Origin: Lentisphaeria bacterium
Lineage (GTDB): Bacteria > Verrucomicrobiota > Lentisphaeria > JABSQK01
Length of the DNA stretch: 45,107 bases
Assembly (NCBI GenBank): GCA_013215875.1
Contig: JABSQK010000014.1
Location: 1-45,107 of the forward strand
Direction of reading: 5' to 3'
The position numbers and the translations under genes were made by a program. Of the stretch, positions 15,554-44,897 are shown piece by piece (the first letter of the stretch is position 1; each line of letters starts with the position of its first letter). The notes under the pieces were generated by a model. The model was not told the DNA's origin and searched no databases. It was given only the letters and a program-made list of their open reading frames with translations.

Positions 15554-16315
15554 ATGTTATCTGAATCACAGCTACAGTCATTTCATGAGCAGGGATACTT
15601 GAAGATCCCGCAGTTTATCGATGGGCAAACCCTGGCCCGGCTGCAGATGGAAACGGAAGCTCTACATGAGGAGATGGCGCAACTTGCAATTGAAGAAGAT
15701 CGAGTGGGACCCAATAGCAATCTTAAAAATGGAGCAGGCATTGCCTGGGAAGAAGACCTTGAAGCGGGCAAGCTTCGCATTCGCCAATTGATTAACAGTG
15801 AATGTGTATGCCCAAGCATTGCAGAAATTCTCGAATCAGAATCCATGCTCTCTGTCATTCGCCAACTCAGTGGTGAACAGGACATTATCAAATTTCATTC
15901 GAAGCTGCTGATGAAACCCGCCAGGGATGGCAGCTTCACTCCCTGGCACCAGGATTGGGGCTATTGGCAAAGTTACAGGAAAGATCCCTCGCAAATCAAT
16001 TGCATGTTATCGATCGACCCCGCTACATTAGAAAACGGCTGCGTGCGCTTTGTTGCAGGTAGCCATAAGGCTGGGTCCATCGAACATGGCACGGTGCCAT
16101 CGGCATCATTCAGTATTGGTTTGGAAGGGGATATCGATGCTTATGATGCGACGCCTGTTGAGACAGAAGCCGGCGATGCCGTATTTTTCGGCTCGCTGAT
16201 CATTCATGGCTCCGCACCAAACAAATCGAATCAGGAGCGTCGGGCAAATACCTTTGCTTATGATAAGGCGAATAATACGTTGGACGAAGAAAATGAAGAA
16301 CCGTTACTTAAATGA
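15554..16315 (+). CDS. Phytanoyl-CoA dioxygenase (PhyH) family protein
   Basis: A 253-residue Fe(II)/2-oxoglutarate-dependent oxygenase. The metal triad is complete: WHQD (His and Asp, about residues 132-134) and IIHGSAPN (second His, about 218). QERRANTF supplies the Arg that binds 2-oxoglutarate. ENGCVRFVAGSHKAGS is the conserved strand-turn of the family. PhyH enzymes hydroxylate lipids, small metabolites or modified sugars; the substrate here is not identifiable. It follows the RAYT gene by about 30 bases with an AGGGGA site 11 bases upstream, so readthrough from the transposase is possible. It is one of five PhyH proteins in the window, all clearly different from one another. Confidence 0.85.
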   Translation: MLSESQLQSFHEQGYLKIPQFIDGQTLARLQMETEALHEEMAQLAIEEDRVGPNSNLKNGAGIAWEEDLEAGKLRIRQLINSECVCPSIAEILESESMLSVIRQLSGEQDIIKFHSKLLMKPARDGSFTPWHQDWGYWQSYRKDPSQINCMLSIDPATLENGCVRFVAGSHKAGSIEHGTVPSASFSIGLEGDIDAYDATPVETEAGDAVFFGSLIIHGSAPNKSNQERRANTFAYDKANNTLDEENEEPLLK

Positions 16316-21199: not shown

Positions 21200-22033
21200 C
21201 TAGCCGCGAGACGGCTCGGTAACACCCTTGGCTTTTAATTCGTCATGATACTCTTTGATCTTAAAATCATTTGCCATGATTTGCTGTAGATGAATCATGC
21301 GTTCAGGTCCAGCCGTATCAATCATCGTTTGCCCAATACAATGGTCAATGAAGAAACGACCTTCTGGGGCCAGCATATTTTGCAAGTCCTCCAGGCGATC
21401 GTCCTCGACGTGCTCACAAAAGTTCATAGTAAACATACGGCGCCGTTCGCTGCCGCCGAATGCTGCATGTTTAAGGTTATGCCAGAAGACAATAATATCA
21501 CCCGGCATCGTTTCCAAAGCCACTGAGGGGACCTCACTGCCATGAATGCCCCAGCTCTTATCTGTATCCTTTCGCAGTTCCTCAACAGTATCTGCATAGG
21601 CATCGCCACAATGATGGCTGCCGGGAATCACCCGTAAGGCACCGGTATCACGCGTCACCGAGTCCAGGTAAAAGGCAATCTTTATACTGGGAATGCGGTC
21701 ACCTTTGTAATCATCGGAATGCCAGTTGGTATCACCAGAATAGTAGTTGCCGTCTCCACTGGTATAATTAAAATCCTCACCGAGAATATCCGCCGCAATA
21801 TCGTGAATCCTGGGATCGTCGAGCAGACTGCTTAGATACACATTTCTACCCGGAAAGGGAAGTAAACACGAACGCTTTGTCAGGTCATGTTCGTTTCCAC
21901 CATGCCCACCGCCATTTTCTTTCCAGACATTTTCAAATTCCTCAATGATCCGTTCTTTGCAGTCATCCAGCAATCCCGGAAAACCCAGATAGCCAAAGGT
22001 ATTAAAAAAATGGTGTTGTTCATCACTTAGCAT
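21200..22033 (-). CDS. Phytanoyl-CoA dioxygenase (PhyH) family protein
   Basis: A 277-residue Fe(II)/2-oxoglutarate oxygenase. The iron ligands are in NWHSDDYKG (His and Asp, about residues 104-106) and NLKHAAFGG (second His, about 189), with RRRMFTMNF giving the 2-oxoglutarate Arg. TGALRVIPGSHHCGD is the family turn. HDLTKRSCLL and the GDGNYYSGDTNWH loop resemble PhyH proteins from Poribacteria- and PVC-type sugar clusters. The ATG lies just 10 bases from the end of the MITE-like element (22044-22217), which therefore makes up the upstream region and may supply or have replaced the promoter. The ribosome site is weak (AGG, 8 bases before). Confidence 0.83.
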   Translation of the reverse strand: MLSDEQHHFFNTFGYLGFPGLLDDCKERIIEEFENVWKENGGGHGGNEHDLTKRSCLLPFPGRNVYLSSLLDDPRIHDIAADILGEDFNYTSGDGNYYSGDTNWHSDDYKGDRIPSIKIAFYLDSVTRDTGALRVIPGSHHCGDAYADTVEELRKDTDKSWGIHGSEVPSVALETMPGDIIVFWHNLKHAAFGGSERRRMFTMNFCEHVEDDRLEDLQNMLAPEGRFFIDHCIGQTMIDTAGPERMIHLQQIMANDFKIKEYHDELKAKGVTEPSRG

Positions 22034-23003: not shown

Positions 23004-23753
23004 ATGGATTTAGCTACAATTGACTATGCAGAGTTGCGCGAAACCTTCGACCGTGAAGGTTACGCACTTGTTCGCAATGTTTTAGATGAAAACGAGCGCA
23101 AGCAAGTTATCGAATTAACTGAGACTTATTTGGGCGAATCGGAAACCGACAATAAACACTCCAGCAGCGATCCAAGCTCAATTACTGTACTCCGTGAAAA
23201 GGCCAAGACAGATGAGTATTTTGCAGCGTTGCGGGAACGCCCCGATATCCTTGAGCTCGCACGTGCAGTACTTGGTCCAAAGATCGCCCACTGCGGGCAC
23301 AGCATTCTCAAATGCGCCAAAGGGCAGGGACATAAGCAATGGCACATCGATGATACGCTCGAGCATCCTCGCCCCGAAAGCACCACCTGGGAGGATGTCG
23401 GATTACCCATGCCCGTTTTATGGATGTCTATACAATTCGCCATCACAGATATTACCTCAGAAGAGAACGGCCCGACACAGATAGTGCCACGCAGCCATTT
23501 TTCAGGACTATTGCCAGAGCAGGACCATGTGAAGGAGCCCGATGAGAAGAACCCCCCGCAGTACCGTGGTCAAGGCCCTGTGCCAATTCTGTGTAACGCC
23601 GGTGACGCTTATCTCTTCAATCATCAAATCTGGCACCGCGGTTCAATCAACCATTCCGAGCAAACCCGTTATTTGATGCAGCAACAATATTGCCAGGCCT
23701 GGCTCAATGGACGCTTTCGCTGGATATCACAAGGCTTGTCGACAGAATCATAG
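23004..23753 (+). CDS. Phytanoyl-CoA dioxygenase (PhyH) family protein, 3' end duplicated downstream
   Basis: A 249-residue Fe(II)/2-oxoglutarate oxygenase. QWHIDDT (iron His and Asp, about residues 112-114), IWHRGSINH (second His, about 213) and EQTRYLMQQ (2-oxoglutarate Arg) are all present, and NGPTQIVPRSHFSG is the family turn. It is preceded by GGAGC 5 bases before the ATG. The final 81 bases, coding LMQQQYCQAWLNGRFRW and the last residues, recur without a mismatch at 26176-26256. The gene itself is intact. The VOC gene, with its ribosome site, begins right after the second copy of this tail, which suggests that phyH and the VOC gene were once adjacent. Confidence 0.85.
   Translation: MDLATIDYAELRETFDREGYALVRNVLDENERKQVIELTETYLGESETDNKHSSSDPSSITVLREKAKTDEYFAALRERPDILELARAVLGPKIAHCGHSILKCAKGQGHKQWHIDDTLEHPRPESTTWEDVGLPMPVLWMSIQFAITDITSEENGPTQIVPRSHFSGLLPEQDHVKEPDEKNPPQYRGQGPVPILCNAGDAYLFNHQIWHRGSINHSEQTRYLMQQQYCQAWLNGRFRWISQGLSTES
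23672..23752 (+). repeat. 81-bp direct repeat, left copy (phyH 3' end)
   Basis: Identical over 81 bases to 26176-26256. It covers the last 26 codons of the upstream phyH and the first two bases of its stop. Stop codons differ (TAG here, TAA at the right copy). The pair encloses 2.4 kb holding a fucosidase fragment and the GDPD lipoprotein gene. Confidence 0.9.
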
Positions 23754-30504: not shown

Positions 30505-32082
30505 ATGTCAGAACATAGATTATCAGATGATGAAGTTTCGCGCTTTATTGTAGACGGCTATCACCGGGTCGATACAGACCTGCCCCCGGAATTGCATGAG
30601 CACATTACTAGCCAAATGCAGGAGCATATAACAGAGGGGGTAAACCCAGGCGATAATATTTTGCCCTTAATTCCTGAAATGTACCAGGTACTTGAATCGC
30701 CTGAAATGAGATCTGCCCTGGAAAGTCTCTATGGCAAAAATTATATGATCATGCCGCATCGGCATACACATGAATTGAATAACAACGATGATGGTTCCGG
30801 ACGCACATGTTTACACTATTTCTTCCACCAGGATTCTTGCGCGTCCCCCGCGCACAACTGCCACCATTACCCGAGACATGGCTTGATCCTTTATTACTGC
30901 CAGGATGTAGATATCGACTTTGGGCCCACCCATGTAATACCCGGAACGCAATACAATCGCGGGCTGCAAAAGGAAGATTCCGAAAATGCCGTCGCCGGTG
31001 TAGCAAAACCGGGAACCGCTTATATTACTCATTTCGACATTGGCCATGGAGCCGGTGTTAACCGCAGGGATGACGAGACTCGCTATATGACAAAGTTTGT
31101 TGTGACCCGTTGCCAGGAACCGAATAAATCGGACTGGAACAATCAGCGCGAGCATTGGCAAATGCCCGACGGCACTACAACCCTGTACCCCAATGAAATA
31201 GGCTGGTGCCATATCTGGGATTGGATGCGTGGCGAAGATGAGCGCAGTGCGAGTTGGCATAATCAAATAGACGAAACCACTGCAGTCATTCTTAGCAGTG
31301 CCGATAACGCCGAAGAGCGTGTTCGGTCCATTAAGGCAATTTCGCGTTTGACACACGTAGATGATGAAGCAATCGCAACGCTTATAAGTTCGCTTGATGA
31401 GGGCGATCAGATCGTCCGGAATGCGGCGATATATGGACTTGCTGCGATCGGCGAAAAAGCCGTACCCGCCTTAATTGAACATTTGCAGAGCTGCAAAACG
31501 GGTGAGGAAAAACCGTCCATGATGACACGTCCCCCGGGTTGGGGAAACCCCATGGTTATGGAAGATGCCGGCCTGGCACTCTCAGCACTGGGTGAACCCG
31601 CTGTACCTGCATTGATCGAATTACTCGAGGAAAACACAGCGAGTGAATGGGCCCAGATAAATGCTGCCTTCGCACTTGGCGATATTGGCAAGCCTGCGGC
31701 AAAAAGCCTGCCCACACTCGTTAGCCTGTTAAGCAGATCGCCACATATTGCCGAAGCAGCGCTTGATGCGATGGGAACGATTGAGGGTGATCTCGGCCCT
31801 GTTCTCGACCCTGTAGCAGACATGATGAACGATCGCGATATCGACGACGACCGGAAAGCCGCTCCGTTAAAAGCTGCCATGATGCTTGCCCGAGTCGGCC
31901 AGGGCGCTGAAGCGGTAGAGGAAAAATTACTGCAGGCCATGACGAGTCACAGTTACCATATACGTTATTCAGCCGCCCATGCCTTAAACCGTATTGGCTC
32001 CGAAGCAGCAAATAAAGCTGTTTATGATTTTCTCTTGTATAGCAGCTGGAGCCCGGATGTCGAAGGAGCAAGTAAAAAATGA
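30505..32082 (+). CDS. PhyH dioxygenase fused to HEAT-repeat domain
   Basis: A 525-residue protein in two halves. Residues about 1-245 form a PhyH-type oxygenase with HYFFHQDSC (iron His and Asp, about 109-111), GPTHVIPGTQYNRG (the family turn), and IGHGAGVNRRDDETRY (second His and the 2-oxoglutarate Arg). Residues about 255-520 are roughly seven HEAT-type helical repeats, for example RNAAIYGLAAIGEKAVPALI, AQINAAFALGDIGKPAAKSL and IRYSAAHALNRIGSEA. The repeats probably bind a partner protein or a large substrate. The fusion is unusual in length and domain order. The stop overlaps the UxuA-like start (ATGA), and CGGAG precedes its own ATG. Confidence 0.83.
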   Translation: MSEHRLSDDEVSRFIVDGYHRVDTDLPPELHEHITSQMQEHITEGVNPGDNILPLIPEMYQVLESPEMRSALESLYGKNYMIMPHRHTHELNNNDDGSGRTCLHYFFHQDSCASPAHNCHHYPRHGLILYYCQDVDIDFGPTHVIPGTQYNRGLQKEDSENAVAGVAKPGTAYITHFDIGHGAGVNRRDDETRYMTKFVVTRCQEPNKSDWNNQREHWQMPDGTTTLYPNEIGWCHIWDWMRGEDERSASWHNQIDETTAVILSSADNAEERVRSIKAISRLTHVDDEAIATLISSLDEGDQIVRNAAIYGLAAIGEKAVPALIEHLQSCKTGEEKPSMMTRPPGWGNPMVMEDAGLALSALGEPAVPALIELLEENTASEWAQINAAFALGDIGKPAAKSLPTLVSLLSRSPHIAEAALDAMGTIEGDLGPVLDPVADMMNDRDIDDDRKAAPLKAAMMLARVGQGAEAVEEKLLQAMTSHSYHIRYSAAHALNRIGSEAANKAVYDFLLYSSWSPDVEGASKK

Positions 32083-35280: not shown

Positions 35281-36039
35281 TTGTCTTTAACTAAATTGCA
35301 AATCGACCATTATCATTCCCGTGGTTTCATCGTTATACCCAATCCATTATCCGATGAAGCGATGGCTGAAATTGATACCCTGCAAAAGGAGATTGAACCG
35401 CGCTGGAGCGAAATGGAATTTCCTGGTAATGTTAATCCGCTTGCAGCTCAGATGTTAATGGCTGGCGAACCGATATTTGAGATGATTGAAAATCCGGGAC
35501 TGATTGAAATGGCCAAAGAGATTCTCGATGTTGACCGTGTAGAAATCGCCGCCTTTGGCATGGGCGATTCATCCCTGGCAGTTGGCGGCGAACAAAAACA
35601 GGTGCAATGGCACTCGGATAATTTTGGCAATGTGAAACAGGTCGCCATCCGCGTGGGACTCGATCGCCATGATGGTGACAATGCACCTCTACGAATTATT
35701 CCCGGCTCTCACAAACGCGATGTGGCTGAGTTTAAGCAAGAGTTATATGAAAATGAAATGGCCTCCTGTCCGGAAGAGATCCCCCCCAAATCTTTGTTTG
35801 CCAAGCACCCGGATGAAATAGAAATCATCCTCGATACACCGATCATGCTTGTATGGACAGCGAATTGTTGGCATTCTACAGGCAAGAAAACATCGACCCG
35901 TCTGCGCCGTGTGGTTACCTGGCACTATTTCGCACCGGGCTACGACAACCCCTTCCAAGCCACCGTATTACATACCCTCGATGGCGTCTGGCAGAAATGG
36001 TCAGGCGAACGAAAAAAACTCTGGGGTTTGTCCGAGTAA
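35281..36039 (+). CDS. Phytanoyl-CoA dioxygenase (PhyH) family protein, last operon gene
   Basis: A 252-residue Fe(II)/2-oxoglutarate oxygenase with TTG start, 9 bases after an AAGGA site that lies over the Kelch stop. VQWHSDNFG (iron His and Asp, about residues 104-106), NCWHSTGKK (second His, about 198), TRLRRVV (2-oxoglutarate Arg) and APLRIIPGSHKRD are the family blocks. The C-terminus HTLDGVWQKWSGERKKLWG is found again, diverged, at 36915-37001. The last gene of the operon is followed by a terminator hairpin and a REP-like repeat. Confidence 0.85.
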   Translation: MSLTKLQIDHYHSRGFIVIPNPLSDEAMAEIDTLQKEIEPRWSEMEFPGNVNPLAAQMLMAGEPIFEMIENPGLIEMAKEILDVDRVEIAAFGMGDSSLAVGGEQKQVQWHSDNFGNVKQVAIRVGLDRHDGDNAPLRIIPGSHKRDVAEFKQELYENEMASCPEEIPPKSLFAKHPDEIEIILDTPIMLVWTANCWHSTGKKTSTRLRRVVTWHYFAPGYDNPFQATVLHTLDGVWQKWSGERKKLWGLSE

Positions 36040-37175: not shown

Positions 37176-39926
37176 ATGAAAATCCGCTTGGCTTACACAC
37201 TATTGATAATTGCCGCTATGAGTACTGCTCGTGCCGGGTATATCGAGGATAAGGATGGCAAGACCATTATTCATGTGGTCTGCGCCCCTGCAGTTCTGCC
37301 GAATCCCCTGAATACCTCACCATTCGGTAAAGCCGAATCCGCTGGCGTTAAGCTGTTCAAGAAAAAGTTCAAACAGATCTTCATCGAAAAATATCGTGAT
37401 AAGTATAAGGCAAATCCCGAAAAATACGGCACGCACAATTGGGATAATGTTGAAGTTAACTTCATCAAAGCAACTGGAATACGTGTGGAAGGTGTCGAAA
37501 CAGACCTTCTACAAATTGCCGGAGATATTGCCCCGGATATCCTTTACGTAAACTTCAGAAAGTCGGATACCTATATCCGCTCTGGCTTTCTCTACCCGTT
37601 GGATAAAGCTGAAGACGGCTATCTCACGGACATGACTCAGGAGGAATTGGACTTTCGTATTAACAAGAAGATTTGGCCAGTCATCAAGCGCAAGGGACCG
37701 CAGGGCAAAAAACAGGTCTGGGCGATTCCCTACGGTGGCGCTATCGGCAAAGTATTGATGTTTCGTAAGGACCGCTTCGATGAACTGAAGATTCCCTATC
37801 CCGATAAAGACTGGACCTGGGATGATATGATGGCCGCTGCCAAAAAACTGACAGATCCTGCAAACGGCTATTATGGCTTGTTGCTCGGTCGTGGCATTCA
37901 CGAATCCTGGCACTGGATTACCTTTCTGTGGTCAGCCGGTGGCGAGGTCATGGTCTACAATGAAAAAACGGATACCTGGTCTTGCACCTTTGATACGGAT
38001 GAAGCGGCTGTCGCTCTCGATTTTTATACGCGGATGAGCGCCGAAAAGTGGATCGATGCCAAAGGCAAAGTGCGGCGCGGTTACTCCAGTAAAGATGCTG
38101 CCGAAAGTTCCTACAAAATTTGGAACCGTGGCCAGATCGGTATGATGCAGGACTATGTGGACGAGAAACTTTTTTCTCAAATAAATCCTGAGACCACCGG
38201 CATGGCCCCGGTGCCCCTGGGACCAACAGGTATTCGCGGTGCCGAATTGAATTCGCGGATGATGGGCCTGTATGCAAAGATTAAACATCCTGCTGTTCGG
38301 GATGTGGCCTGGGAATATATGAAACATTACGATTCCAAAGAGACCTCGGCGCTAAAAACGAAAATCATGGTCGAAGGCGGCCTCGGACGCTACGTCAATC
38401 CAAAGTATCTGCGCATGTTCGGCTACGGTTTTATGGAACGCTTATCACCCAAAGGCTGGGTGGAAACCTTTAACATCGCTATCGCTTCTGGTAAACCCGA
38501 ACCCTATGGGAAGAATTCAAACATTGCCTATGACTTGATGACCAAGCCGCTCCAGGAAGCCGAGCAGCTAATGCTCAATAATAAGCTGCCGAAGAATAGA
38601 GAGGCCCGTCTAAAAATCTTGAAAGCGATACTGGTAAAAGCCAATGCCAGGGCCAATGAAGAAATGATCGGCGTCATCAGCCCAGAGGAGCGTCGTAACC
38701 GTCGCATTGCTGCGGTTAGTGTACTGATCTGTGTCATTATTGGCTTTGTCTTTGTCTTTAAACGCATCTTTAAAATATTCTCCCCGCCCGAAACCTACGG
38801 AATTAAAAAGAAGAAATGGGATTTTAAACGCTATTTCTGGGCCTATATGCTGCTTTTACCCGCTGTCCTCTGCATACTTGTCTGGCAATATATACCATTG
38901 CTTCGCGGCTCTTATATGGCGTTCTTTGACTATCAACTGGTCCTGGAATCCAGCTTTGTGGGCGTTGACAACTTCGGTGATCTGCTTTGGAATAGGGACT
39001 TCTGGGTGAGCATCTGGAATGCAATTCGCTACAGTGGTATGGTCTTGGCCTTCACCTTTCTACCCCCTATTATTTTAGCTATTCTGCTTCAGGAAGTGCC
39101 CAAGGGCAAGATACTCTTCCGGACGATTTATTATCTCCCGGCGGTCATCTCGGGTCTTGTTGTCATCCTCCTTTGGAAGCAGTTTTATGAGCCATCGGAG
39201 AATGGTGCTTTAAATGCCATCGTCCTGCAAATTCCCTTAATCGGATTCGTTTTAATTGGCTTAGCCATTTTTGCACTGCTCAGTGTGTTCGGAGTTCGCC
39301 TGCGTCTTCATGAAATGAAATGGCAATCAAATGCCTTTTTTATAGCTGGTGTTGTATTATGCGGCTCGGTTATTTCTCTTGGTAAAACAATCATGATTAA
39401 AGATGGCGAAACCCTGGTATCCGCTTTACCGCATCTAGTCTCTCGCCTTTTCAATGTGATGCCGGAACCAAGTAACTGGTTAGCAAACCCGGACACAGCA
39501 ATGATCTGTTGTATTGTACCCATGGTCTGGGCCGGCATGGGACCGGGTTGCTTGATATATCTGGCTGCCTTGAAAGGAATCCCCGATGATTTCTATGAGG
39601 CCGCAGATATCGATGGGGCAAATTTTATTGATAAAATCCTCTTCGTCGTTTTCCCAAATCTAAAAGCTTTGATTATCATCAACTTCATTGGCGCCTTTAT
39701 CGCATCGTGGTATACCGCAACGGGTGCCATACTAATGATGACCGGCGGTGCTGCTAACACTGAGGTGGTTGGCCTGCATATTTGGAAGAAGGCGTTTACC
39801 TATTTGAAGTTTGGGCCGGCAACAGCCATGGCCTGGGTCCTGGGATTCATGTTGATTGGGTTCACAATGCACCAACTTAAAATCCTTTCGAACCTGGAAT
39901 TCAAAACAACCGGGGGGGATGACTAA
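37176..39926 (+). CDS. Sugar ABC transporter: solute-binding protein fused to MalF-type permease
   Basis: A 916-residue fusion. Residues 1-20 are a signal peptide (cleavage after ARA). Residues about 24-500 form a family-1-like solute-binding protein (DILYVNFRKSD, WAIPYGGAIGKVLMFRKDRF, WTWDDMMAAAKKLTDP, LLLGRGIHESWHW). A membrane helix follows at about 511-530 (IAAVSVLICVIIGFVFVF). A MalF-like permease fills about 553-910, with the cytoplasmic EAA loop EAADIDGANFIDKILFVVFP (about 807-826) that contacts the ATPase. Normally the binding protein and permease are separate polypeptides; here the receptor is tethered to its channel. The stop overlaps the second permease (TAATG). No ATPase gene lies in the window, so it must be supplied from elsewhere. 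The ribosome site is weak. Confidence 0.84.
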   Translation: MKIRLAYTLLIIAAMSTARAGYIEDKDGKTIIHVVCAPAVLPNPLNTSPFGKAESAGVKLFKKKFKQIFIEKYRDKYKANPEKYGTHNWDNVEVNFIKATGIRVEGVETDLLQIAGDIAPDILYVNFRKSDTYIRSGFLYPLDKAEDGYLTDMTQEELDFRINKKIWPVIKRKGPQGKKQVWAIPYGGAIGKVLMFRKDRFDELKIPYPDKDWTWDDMMAAAKKLTDPANGYYGLLLGRGIHESWHWITFLWSAGGEVMVYNEKTDTWSCTFDTDEAAVALDFYTRMSAEKWIDAKGKVRRGYSSKDAAESSYKIWNRGQIGMMQDYVDEKLFSQINPETTGMAPVPLGPTGIRGAELNSRMMGLYAKIKHPAVRDVAWEYMKHYDSKETSALKTKIMVEGGLGRYVNPKYLRMFGYGFMERLSPKGWVETFNIAIASGKPEPYGKNSNIAYDLMTKPLQEAEQLMLNNKLPKNREARLKILKAILVKANARANEEMIGVISPEERRNRRIAAVSVLICVIIGFVFVFKRIFKIFSPPETYGIKKKKWDFKRYFWAYMLLLPAVLCILVWQYIPLLRGSYMAFFDYQLVLESSFVGVDNFGDLLWNRDFWVSIWNAIRYSGMVLAFTFLPPIILAILLQEVPKGKILFRTIYYLPAVISGLVVILLWKQFYEPSENGALNAIVLQIPLIGFVLIGLAIFALLSVFGVRLRLHEMKWQSNAFFIAGVVLCGSVISLGKTIMIKDGETLVSALPHLVSRLFNVMPEPSNWLANPDTAMICCIVPMVWAGMGPGCLIYLAALKGIPDDFYEAADIDGANFIDKILFVVFPNLKALIIINFIGAFIASWYTATGAILMMTGGAANTEVVGLHIWKKAFTYLKFGPATAMAWVLGFMLIGFTMHQLKILSNLEFKTTGGDD

Positions 39927-41836
39927 TGCCAATCATTTCCGAAATCGGGCGGCGATCTCTCAAGGTGCGCCTGCTCATTGGCAGCATCTACATCCTGCTC
40001 ATCATCGGCTCGATCACCATGGTGCATCCCTTCATTCTGATGATTGCGGGTTCAACAAAATCGGCAGTGGATACACCAGAGGCCAAGCTGATTCCAGAAT
40101 TTATTATCAATGATGAGGCGCTGTACCAGAAAGAAACCGAGGCTTTGTTTAACGACGATTTCAGAATCATGAAACAGGTTTATCATACAGAAGACTTTAT
40201 ATCCTTTCGTATGATGTCTATTCCCACGGCATCGAATGACGCATTAGTCGATGAATGGGAAGCCTACCTGAAGCAGCGCGAGCTATTGCCTTATGTCGCG
40301 AACATGGGCCACTTCACCTCTACCGTCGGCACCACACCCAGGAACCTCAGAGCGCTAAAAGCCACTTACATTGAAAGCTACAAGGATATCGACAGCATAA
40401 ACGATCACTTTGACGTTGAGTTTGTATCCTGGAATTATTTTAAGATTTATCCAGGCAGATACCTTGGACGCAACCAAAAATACTACAAAACGCCCTTTCT
40501 TGATTCCACCCACGCATTCAGCCTAACCCTTCCCAAACATGATCTATTCTTCTTCAGTCTAGAGGGATTTTACAAGAATGAATTTCTGAAGACCCAGTAC
40601 AGCATGGAAATCGATTCCTACAACGCCTCCCATGGCACGAGCTATAAAAGCTACAACAGCCTGCACCTGGACAGGACCTTTCCCAGCGGCGAAGGGCGGA
40701 CCAAAAAGGAACAGGAAGACTGGAACGACTTTGTTCGCAATCTCTTTAACCTCCTGTGGATTCGTTCCGATCAGACCGCCGCAGAGGGCTACAGGGATTT
40801 CCTTATGGCCAAGTACGGCACAATGAAGAATCTCAATAACTCATACGGTACCAGCTATGAAAAGCCGGCAGATATAGTCTACCCAGAACAGTGTCCGGTG
40901 TCGGGCTCCTCTGCATCGGATTGGGAATCCTACCTGCAGGGTTGGAAAGATCCGGAAACCGCAACAATCAATGAGATGCCGATTAAATCAATATCCATAA
41001 CGGGAACAGATTTCTGGTTCCAGGATTTTCTAAAATCAAAATATGGCTCCCTTGAGAAAGTGAACCAAGCGTGCGCCACATCCTTTAGCTCCTTCAGTGA
41101 TATTACACCCCCACAGCGAGACTGGCACTACAGACATTTTCTAAAAAACCGCTCGTCGATCAAGAAGGAGTTTATGTTCCGCAACCTGATTACTGTTTTT
41201 GACTTCGTCGTCATTCATGGACGTGCCATTTTCAATACAGCCTTCTACTGTGCGCTGGCTATTCTCACTGCCTTGATTGTTAATCCTCTGGCGGCCTATG
41301 CATTGAGCCGCTACAAACCGCCATCCCAGTATAAAATGCTCTTGTTCCTGATGATGACCATGGCCTTTCCACCAATGGTCACCCAGATCCCGATCTTTCT
41401 AATGATCCGTGAATTTCAAATGCTCAATACCTTTTGGGCGCTAATCCTGCCGGGCGTCGCCAATGGCTATGCTATTTTTCTACTCAAGGGCTTTTTTGAC
41501 TCCCTGCCCAGGGAGTTATACGAGAGCGCTGAGATTGACGGTGCCAGTGAATTCAGGATTTTTTGGCAGTTCACCATGGCCTTGTCCAAACCGATACTTG
41601 CGGTTATCGCCCTACAGACCTTCACCGGAGCCTATGGAAATTTTATGATGGCCTTACTGATCTGCCAGGACGAAAAAATGTGGACAATCATGCCATGGTT
41701 ATACCAACTACAGATGAACAGCGGTGAAGGCGTTGTTTTTGCCTCCCTGATTTTAGCATCCGTACCCACATTTCTCATCTTTGTATTTTGTCAAAATATC
41801 ATCATGCGCGGGATTGTCGTACCCAGCGAAAAATAG
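39926..41836 (+). CDS. Sugar ABC transporter MalG-type permease with a large periplasmic repeat insertion
   Basis: A 636-residue permease, more than twice the usual length. The first membrane helix is at about residues 15-38. The remaining helices run from about 425 on, with the EAA loop ELYESAEIDGASEFRIFWQF (about 531-550). Between them lies a periplasmic loop of about 370 residues with four similar units spaced about 72-76 residues apart, starting near 143, 218, 290 and 366. The clearest pairs are DFLMAKYGTMKNLNNSYGTS and DFLKSKYGSLEKVNQACATS. Such K-Y-G/L-N/Y-G-T-S units resemble motifs of beta-galactosidase-type glycosidases, so the insertion may bind sugar. It is translationally coupled to the upstream fusion gene. 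Confidence 0.8.
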   Translation: MPIISEIGRRSLKVRLLIGSIYILLIIGSITMVHPFILMIAGSTKSAVDTPEAKLIPEFIINDEALYQKETEALFNDDFRIMKQVYHTEDFISFRMMSIPTASNDALVDEWEAYLKQRELLPYVANMGHFTSTVGTTPRNLRALKATYIESYKDIDSINDHFDVEFVSWNYFKIYPGRYLGRNQKYYKTPFLDSTHAFSLTLPKHDLFFFSLEGFYKNEFLKTQYSMEIDSYNASHGTSYKSYNSLHLDRTFPSGEGRTKKEQEDWNDFVRNLFNLLWIRSDQTAAEGYRDFLMAKYGTMKNLNNSYGTSYEKPADIVYPEQCPVSGSSASDWESYLQGWKDPETATINEMPIKSISITGTDFWFQDFLKSKYGSLEKVNQACATSFSSFSDITPPQRDWHYRHFLKNRSSIKKEFMFRNLITVFDFVVIHGRAIFNTAFYCALAILTALIVNPLAAYALSRYKPPSQYKMLLFLMMTMAFPPMVTQIPIFLMIREFQMLNTFWALILPGVANGYAIFLLKGFFDSLPRELYESAEIDGASEFRIFWQFTMALSKPILAVIALQTFTGAYGNFMMALLICQDEKMWTIMPWLYQLQMNSGEGVVFASLILASVPTFLIFVFCQNIIMRGIVVPSEK

Positions 41837-43925: not shown

Positions 43926-44072
43926 AATCGTATTCCTTAATTGTTGAATCGTTTCATATATCTTACAGGTTGGAAAGAGTGGGGCAAGCAGGAATTACCG
44001 TTTAAGACGAAATTCACAGTTGGAACAAAGACTAAAATGTTGTATGTTCTCAAAAATCTAAAGGAAAACGAT

Positions 44073-44897
44073 ATGGCTACTGAACAAGAAAGAATTGACT
44101 ATTGGTCGTCTTATATGGATGAGATGCTGGAATTCCAAAATAGGGTTATGCCTCATCCGGTCGAGGAATGCGGGGACCCACTTCTACCGATTCCAGATGC
44201 CATGGAAGGCATCGAAGTATTGTATTCCGATACTAAACTTGCCGGAACATTTGAGCGGATTTATTATATTCGCTCTGGTATACTTGATGATCTGGTGGCG
44301 ATTGCCCGTGAGATGAATGAGCGCGGCTGGATATTAAAAATTGAAGATGCTTACCGCAGCATGGAAATGCAAACTGCCCTTGTTGGTAACCCGGGAATAT
44401 TTGAACAGATTGTTGAAAAGTGCAAATGGGAAAGCGGCGGCGAAACTCCCTCGGTGGATTTGGTGAGTAGGCGTCTACGTCTACTGGTTGCGAATTGCGG
44501 AAAGTTTGGCACACATACCCAAGGCTGTGCAGTAGATATTTCAGTTTACAATCGTAATGATGGCAGCGAAGTCTGGCGCGGCAAGCCCTATCTTCATATG
44601 AGCGAATTAACGCCAATGGAATCGCCCTTTATTTCTGCCGATGATTTAGCCAACCGTCTGGCGATCTCCGAGCTGGTGGAGTCACATGGCTTTATTCGAT
44701 ATCCGGCAGAATTTTGGCACTACAATAAGGGCGATGTAATGCATCGGCAATTAACCGGAAGTTCCGAGCCCGGTATCTATGGCTCTGTGCACTTTAATCC
44801 GGAAACCGGCGAGACCGTTCCCTACGATGATATCCTTGCACCATTAGTTCCAGATGAGCAGCTTGCCATATTGCTGGAAGCAGCGATGAATAAGTGA
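44073..44897 (+). CDS. D-Ala-D-Ala dipeptidase (VanX/DdpX)-like, peptidase M15D
   Basis: A 274-residue zinc peptidase. The ATG at 44073 has AAAGGA 7 bases upstream; an ORF start at 43941 lies in the intergenic region and lacks support. IEDAYRSMEMQ (about residues 90-100), GTHTQGCAVDIS (zinc His and Asp, about 147-158) and FWHYNKGD (catalytic Glu before and zinc His, about 212-219) are the M15D blocks. These enzymes split D-Ala-D-Ala, for use of peptidoglycan fragments or vancomycin tolerance. No signal peptide and no vanA/vanH-type genes nearby, so the peptidoglycan-recycling reading is more likely. It is divergent from the Gfo/Idh operon. Confidence 0.82.
   Translation: MATEQERIDYWSSYMDEMLEFQNRVMPHPVEECGDPLLPIPDAMEGIEVLYSDTKLAGTFERIYYIRSGILDDLVAIAREMNERGWILKIEDAYRSMEMQTALVGNPGIFEQIVEKCKWESGGETPSVDLVSRRLRLLVANCGKFGTHTQGCAVDISVYNRNDGSEVWRGKPYLHMSELTPMESPFISADDLANRLAISELVESHGFIRYPAEFWHYNKGDVMHRQLTGSSEPGIYGSVHFNPETGETVPYDDILAPLVPDEQLAILLEAAMNK

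Follow-up and report, generated by a model that had tools for sequence, protein, structure and literature searches.

A five-unit repeat array in periplasmic loop P1 of a MalG-type permease from a Lentisphaeria bacterium, conserved alongside a receptor-MalF fusion

In the sugar importer that has been studied best, it is mainly the P2 domain of MalF that provides the cap, and loop P1 of MalG makes a minor contact. The MalG proteins of Escherichia coli MalFGK2-MalE and its CUT1-type relatives (MalG, UgpE, SugB, AlgM2) are about 275-305 aa in length, have a short P1 and are served by a solute-binding protein (SBP) that is free or lipid-anchored. According to the title of Daus et al. (2007), cited in the reference list of PMC3150292, the E. 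coli/Salmonella binding protein makes contacts with precisely MalF P2 and MalG P1. The system reported here shares with these importers the MalG core with its EAA loop but carries about 386 residues in P1 and has the SBP fused to MalF. Covalently linked substrate-binding domains are present in the importers OpuA and GlnPQ (PMC11065425, PMC8025302), which have in common with our system that the receptor is permanently tethered to the permease. OpuA and GlnPQ belong, however, to different importer families (for glycine betaine and glutamine, respectively) and come from Gram-positives, whereas here the receptor is located N-terminal to MalF, is connected via its own membrane helix and has a partner permease with a repeat domain. 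We found no published description of this architecture in openly licensed papers; it is real, conserved and undescribed in searchable papers, and constitutes a variant within a known transporter class.

The window, i.e. the complete stretch of DNA that was analyzed, is a contig of 45,107 nucleotides in which the two permease genes lie next to each other on the plus strand. The first (positions 37176-39926) encodes an SBP-MalF fusion of 916 aa consisting of a signal peptide, a solute-binding domain, an anchor helix and a MalF-type permease domain. Pfam assigns SBP_bac_1 to residues 113-387 (E 2.5e-20; plus strand, 37512-38336) and BPD_transp_1 to residues 747-895 (E 1.1e-10), so that the sequence-only reading was right in placing the receptor on the partner permease chain. 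As judged from hydropathy and charge, the anchor helix resides between the receptor and the permease domain at residues 511-529 (plus strand, 38706-38762) and is followed by a positively charged linker of cytoplasmic type. No large soluble domain is found amid the core helices of this MalF. Residues 686-741 (39231-39398) form two additional hydrophobic helices that are missing from more distant homologues (alignment gap at about 686-762). Among the 17 BPD_transp_1 matches in the genome, a single pair is of the SBP-MalF plus insertion MalG type, as judged by open-frame length, and MalK-type ATPases with an OB domain are encoded on other contigs of the same genome. The 45 kb contig furthermore harbors five phytanoyl-CoA-dioxygenase-like genes (15554-16315, 21200-22033, 23004-23753, 30505-32082 and 35281-36039), two of them recognized by Pfam and the rest by eye, one being fused to HEAT repeats, as well as a gene for a Peptidase M15 (D-Ala-D-Ala dipeptidase-like; 43941-44897) adjoining one for a GFO/IDH/MocA oxidoreductase.

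The start codon of malG shares one base with the malF stop codon (TAATG). The gene (plus strand, 39926-41836; identified as an open reading frame and by Pfam) encodes a MalG-type permease of 636 aa with a periplasmic repeat insertion. Its TM1 region comprises residues 10-44 (plus strand, 39953-40057; from hydropathy, with a helix at 12-42 in the AlphaFold2 model), the insertion in loop P1 spans residues 45-430 (plus strand, 40058-41215; from the AlphaFold2 model and P1 loop statistics) and the conserved transmembrane core takes up residues 431-636 (plus strand, 41216-41833; from Pfam BPD_transp_1 and matches to AlgM2, SugB and MalG). Hydrophobic segments are located at residues 10-44 and otherwise from about residue 433 on, and thus about 386 residues separate TM1 from TM2, compared with a median of 33 in the 71 ordinary MalGs that we collected. 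The open reading frame, coordinates and topology originally proposed for a MalG-type permease with a long periplasmic insertion are correct, and so is the premise that ordinary permeases have a short loop at this place. The best-matching relatives in the PDB, AlgM2 (4tqu), SugB (7cad) and MalG (2r6g), align from about residue 400 on only. Residues 459-628 match Pfam BPD_transp_1 (PF00528; E 5e-15, 56.1 bits versus a cut-off of 26.4), and the EAA-type coupling loop ELYESAEIDGASEFRIFWQFTMALSKP (residues 530-556; plus strand, 41513-41593; read from the sequence) is intact, with E533, A535, G539 and P556 invariant across 28 homologues. The nearest curated families are UgpE, MalG and GlcU, each scoring under its equivalog cut-off in NCBIfam (UgpE best with 6.6e-22 and 78.5 bits, cut-off 297; MalG 60.9 bits, cut-off 261); going by these profile scores, the protein is to be placed in the MalG/UgpE subfamily without being MalG or UgpE proper. 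Five other insertion MalGs (L058, L062, L064, L071 and L078) exhibit extra hydrophobic sequence ahead of the EAA loop, amounting to about 60 residues in the aligned ones among them.

Within the P1 insertion, five degenerate units follow each other with a spacing of 71-78 residues, all encoded on the plus strand. A unit profile of 36 positions, trained exclusively on other family members, yielded 4.3, 17.9, 26.5 and 43.1 bits at residues 152, 219, 288 and 365. These scores belong to unit 1 (residues ~139-175, 40340-40450; helices 139-152 and 155-162), unit 2 (residues ~212-250, 40559-40675; helices 212-225 and 229-236), unit 3 (residues ~283-321, 40772-40888; KYGTMKNLNNSYGTSY; helices 283-297 and 300-307) and unit 4 (residues ~361-398, 41006-41119; KYGSLEKVNQACATSFSSFSDI), the last of which also produces GH42/GH14 matches in Pfam. 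The top single score obtained with this profile on 1000 shuffled insertions was 3.2 bits, and a Smith-Waterman comparison of the insertion with itself scored 75, as opposed to 34 +/- 5 (maximum 51) for 300 shuffles. The N-terminal unit 0 (residues ~66-104, 40121-40237) emerged when the family alignment was compared with the unit profile by hhalign (probability 95.8, E 8e-9) and appears as helix-helix-3-10 in the AlphaFold2 model (helices 63-74 and 79-86). The repeats are real. From the letters of the DNA, four units had been counted at distances of about 72-76 residues, each with a KYG...LN...YGTS pattern; the comparison with shuffled sequences upholds the repeats, the count has to be raised to five and the distances widened, and the pattern is well spelled in units 3 and 4 only, the units at ~139 and ~212 being degenerate. 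In homologues, an earlier and looser profile detected one to five copies each, often 60-80 residues apart, and the length of the insertion ranges from 225 to 597 residues across the family.

Single-chain AlphaFold2 predictions were run with an input of 14 sequences. For the insertion alone (residues 45-432), they returned a pLDDT of 90.5 and a pTM of 0.88, and in the full-chain model of MalG, pLDDT within the insertion is mostly 85-95. The prediction is thus a confident repeat fold and not the set of unrelated segments that would have spoken against the initial proposal. The recurring order in a unit is a helix (DW..F), mostly a short strand, a long helix (FLxxKY), a short helix (lxxLN) and a 3-10 turn. 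As the fold search of the PDB with the whole chain returned permease cores only, a model of the insertion by itself was prepared for a search of its own. With the whole insertion domain, Foldseek found no PDB chain at E <= 0.001 (best 0.44), and a viral fold library gave nothing for the insertion. The weak PDB matches (E 0.4-9) are almost all glycosidase barrels of families GH14, GH42, GH50 and GH167, and the tightest among the Foldseek matches are single elements of 36-46 columns superimposing at 1.1-2.1 A.

Glycosidases also turn up at the sequence level. Unit 4 attains 23 bits for GH42 (cut-off 21) and 24.1 bits for GH14 (cut-off 27) in Pfam, and weak PDB sequence matches of the insertion comprise the GH42 entries 5e9a and 6ptm and the GH50 entry 4bq2. 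With 24 of 28 family members matching Pfam GH42 (best E 6.6e-23), one might suppose that the permease carries a working glycoside hydrolase as its insertion. We consider this highly improbable: the matches are short repeated stretches at profile positions ~136-264, to which Pfam coverage of the GH42 profile is confined; Foldseek reveals no full (beta/alpha)8 barrel in the insertion; and the catalytic Asn-Glu acid/base motif (NE) precedes none of the units in the MalG sequence, rendering hydrolysis by the insertion unlikely. A full hydrolase domain was rejected as a candidate since Pfam and Foldseek matches are limited to one element. Two GH42-matching proteins from the window's own genome look glycosidase-like on reading, and one glycosidase-like protein of this genome (L156) has an Asn-Glu motif ahead of the shared element. 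When the insertion alignment was searched against 60 genomes, long matches occurred, among the matches listed, solely in insertion permeases; the others listed were short, in the majority of cases covering ~35-80 positions and located in large open frames. What the units have in common with the GH42/GH14/GH50 barrels (PF02449, PF01373), by sequence and local fold, is the element FLkxKYgxlxxLNxxwGTxxxSwxxI...P...DW, which is present once per enzyme-like frame but several times in tandem in the MalG insertion, where both full barrel and catalytic motif are absent. Each unit hence resembles a single helix-helix-loop element of glycosidase barrels (GH42, GH14, GH50). Descent of this element from an ancestor shared with the barrels is plausible, and the likeness may also have arisen by convergence. 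No CBM family matched the MalG insertion up to E 0.1, and the suggested look at glycosidase and CBM families has accordingly brought to light the GH42/GH14 element but neither a catalytic domain nor a carbohydrate-binding module.

It is against this background that a putative built-in glycan-binding array has to be discussed, which would pass oligosaccharide to or from the tethered receptor near the pore. This is possible and forms the main rival to the docking role proposed below, yet we hold it to be rather doubtful. The closest neighbours of the unit in sequence and structure are all sugar-active enzymes (GH42, GH14, GH50, GH167), aromatic residues account for 13% of the insertion versus 11% of the SBP part, a CBM30-like domain occupies P1 in a different lineage (see below), and sulfatases, GH20, GH38 and GH130 are encoded among the neighbour genes in related loci. 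The shared element is, on the other hand, a structural helix-helix-loop element and not a catalytic center, the conserved KYG, LN, GT, S.W and DW look structural as well, and fast divergence combined with a variable number of units is compatible with glycan binding and docking alike.

Our systematic survey covered the phylum Verrucomicrobiota, and a search with the insertion alone gave hits in 104 of the 388 genomes sampled, including that of the cultured type strain Oligosphaera ethanolica DSM 24202 (L076). Insertion MalGs also occur in other Lentisphaerae, in Verrucomicrobia, Kiritimatiellae, Sumerlaeota, Cloacimonadota and Hydrogenedentota and in one MAG labelled Actinomycetota, with diderm lineages predominating among the carriers; many of the bacteria with this arrangement have received little study. 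When the tree was calculated solely from the membrane core, the 47 insertion MalGs grouped together in a single clade with a support of 100/99, and the survey of MalG homologues that had been advised shows the entire clade to carry the insertion, which has a single origin. The genome from which the window stems is distributed over 876 contigs with 5% contamination, and the insertion diverges quickly, as might be expected of drifting padding under low constraint or of an artefact of metagenome assembly. Such an explanation is barely credible and is refuted by the conserved open frames, which run without stops in these genomes and in the cultured Oligosphaera strain, together with the confidently predicted fold.

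The gene neighborhood ties the insertion to the tethered receptor. We assessed 49 insertion loci, two of them duplicates, and detected an intact adjacent SBP-MalF fusion at 38. At four more, the fusion is frame-broken (two), cut by a contig end (one) or situated about 4 kb upstream (one), and at the remaining seven the sequence piece examined contains no fusion. An unfused MalF next to an insertion MalG was encountered at none of the 49 loci, whereas it accompanies 70 of 71 ordinary MalGs. The reverse look-up in the class gave a corresponding picture: among the related fused MalFs looked up, those with a MalG beside them had one bearing an insertion. Several related SBP-MalF fusions (L180-L184, L194-L196 and L198-L200) have no MalG nearby, pointing at the possibility that several receptor-MalF subunits share one MalG, and these lone fusions may draw on a MalG encoded elsewhere. 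In an independent-pairs test of insertion against fusion, only two supported pairs were available; the tree contains no more than about four to five changes of label, and the test is therefore without power.

Outside the KYG clade, some MalGs contain insertions unrelated to the KYG repeats (L131, L188-L193, L205, L116 and L138). Those of L131 and of L188-L193 and L205 are similar to our system in that the insertion sits in the same P1 loop and the partner is an SBP-MalF fusion. In L131 (4123-7661), from Omnitrophota, the P1 domain is CBM30-like (Pfam 1e-6, above cut-off) and gave no significant match to the unit profile. In L188-L193 and L205, the insertion is ~300-333 residues long, has no Pfam match and looks beta-rich by eye; kinship with the KYG insertion was rejected at an hhalign probability of 4%. 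The strict rule that a fused SBP implies a P1 insertion is broken by L202-L204, in which SBP-MalF fusions are paired with a MalG possessing an ordinary P1 loop of 39 residues, and a P1 domain is thus not obligatory. P1 insertions of 175 and 136 residues are found beside unfused MalF in L116 (6641-7942) and L138 (1631-2809), originating from Phycisphaerae and Victivallis, respectively.

Pairwise identities among 34 systems have medians of 26% for the insertion, 32% for the SBP, 63% for the MalG core and 48% for the MalF core; insertion and SBP diverge at a similar pace, and the two cores are conserved. After regressing out the cores, divergence of the insertion remains correlated with that of the SBP (partial r 0.34, Mantel p 0.0005), a modest correlation drawn from saturated distances; insertion length and SBP length are not correlated (r -0.06). 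This bears on yet another conceivable role of the array, that of a periplasmic spacer or anchor connecting the inner-membrane importer with a channel of the outer membrane, with peptidoglycan or with a secreted hydrolase. As in spacers, the array differs in size between homologues (225-597 residues, with a varying number of units) around a conserved core, and the lineages concerned are mostly diderm. We nevertheless deem this role unlikely, because the correlated divergence of insertion and SBP speaks for the receptor as the partner and no consistent third gene lies next to the pair: related loci have no constant third-gene partner, their neighbours being a mixture of carbohydrate and housekeeping genes.

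The reading that we prefer, with a probability of about 0.5 and by analogy with the E. coli importer, is that, in the periplasm, the insertion provides the tethered receptor with a docking and capping platform. The two genes encode an ABC importer of type I (MalFGK2-like), putatively for sugar, with the SBP joined to MalF through a membrane helix of its own and with P1 of MalG enlarged to a rigid five-unit array, which would rise beside the translocation pore. This array may hold the tethered receptor over the pore and limit its swing, thereby possibly helping to align the receptor's sugar-release cleft in the ATP cycle. In E. coli, this job is split between the P2 domain of MalF and the short P1 loop of MalG. 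SBP-MalF/MalG would be powered by a MalK-type ATPase encoded elsewhere; we infer the use of this ATPase along with the docking role, the direction of import and a sugar as the substrate. A docking scaffold fits the evidence at least as well as the sugar-binding or gating domain suggested at the outset. Against a docking platform it can be held that glycosidase-like units would be equally suited for contact with sugar, that L116 and L138 combine P1 insertions with an unfused MalF and that the fusions in L202-L204 manage with an ordinary loop of 39 residues.

On a wider and more speculative view, which we advance as a tentative and somewhat doubtful idea, an element of glycosidase barrels was multiplied, installed in P1 of MalG and co-evolves with the tethered receptor, and, taking into account the unrelated P1 domains of other systems with a fused receptor, as a general rule MalG would tend to grow a periplasmic recognition or gating domain of its own once the receptor resides on MalF. 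If true, these importers would have a second checkpoint for substrate or receptor that is absent from textbook importers. The array also provides an example of an enzyme-barrel element serving as a tandem repeat. Since the system is encoded in 104 of the 388 genomes sampled from the phylum and in a cultured type strain, it is testable, and a widespread clade combining a large rigid P1 domain of MalG with a receptor fixed to MalF offers a natural experiment on tethering, docking and importer specificity.
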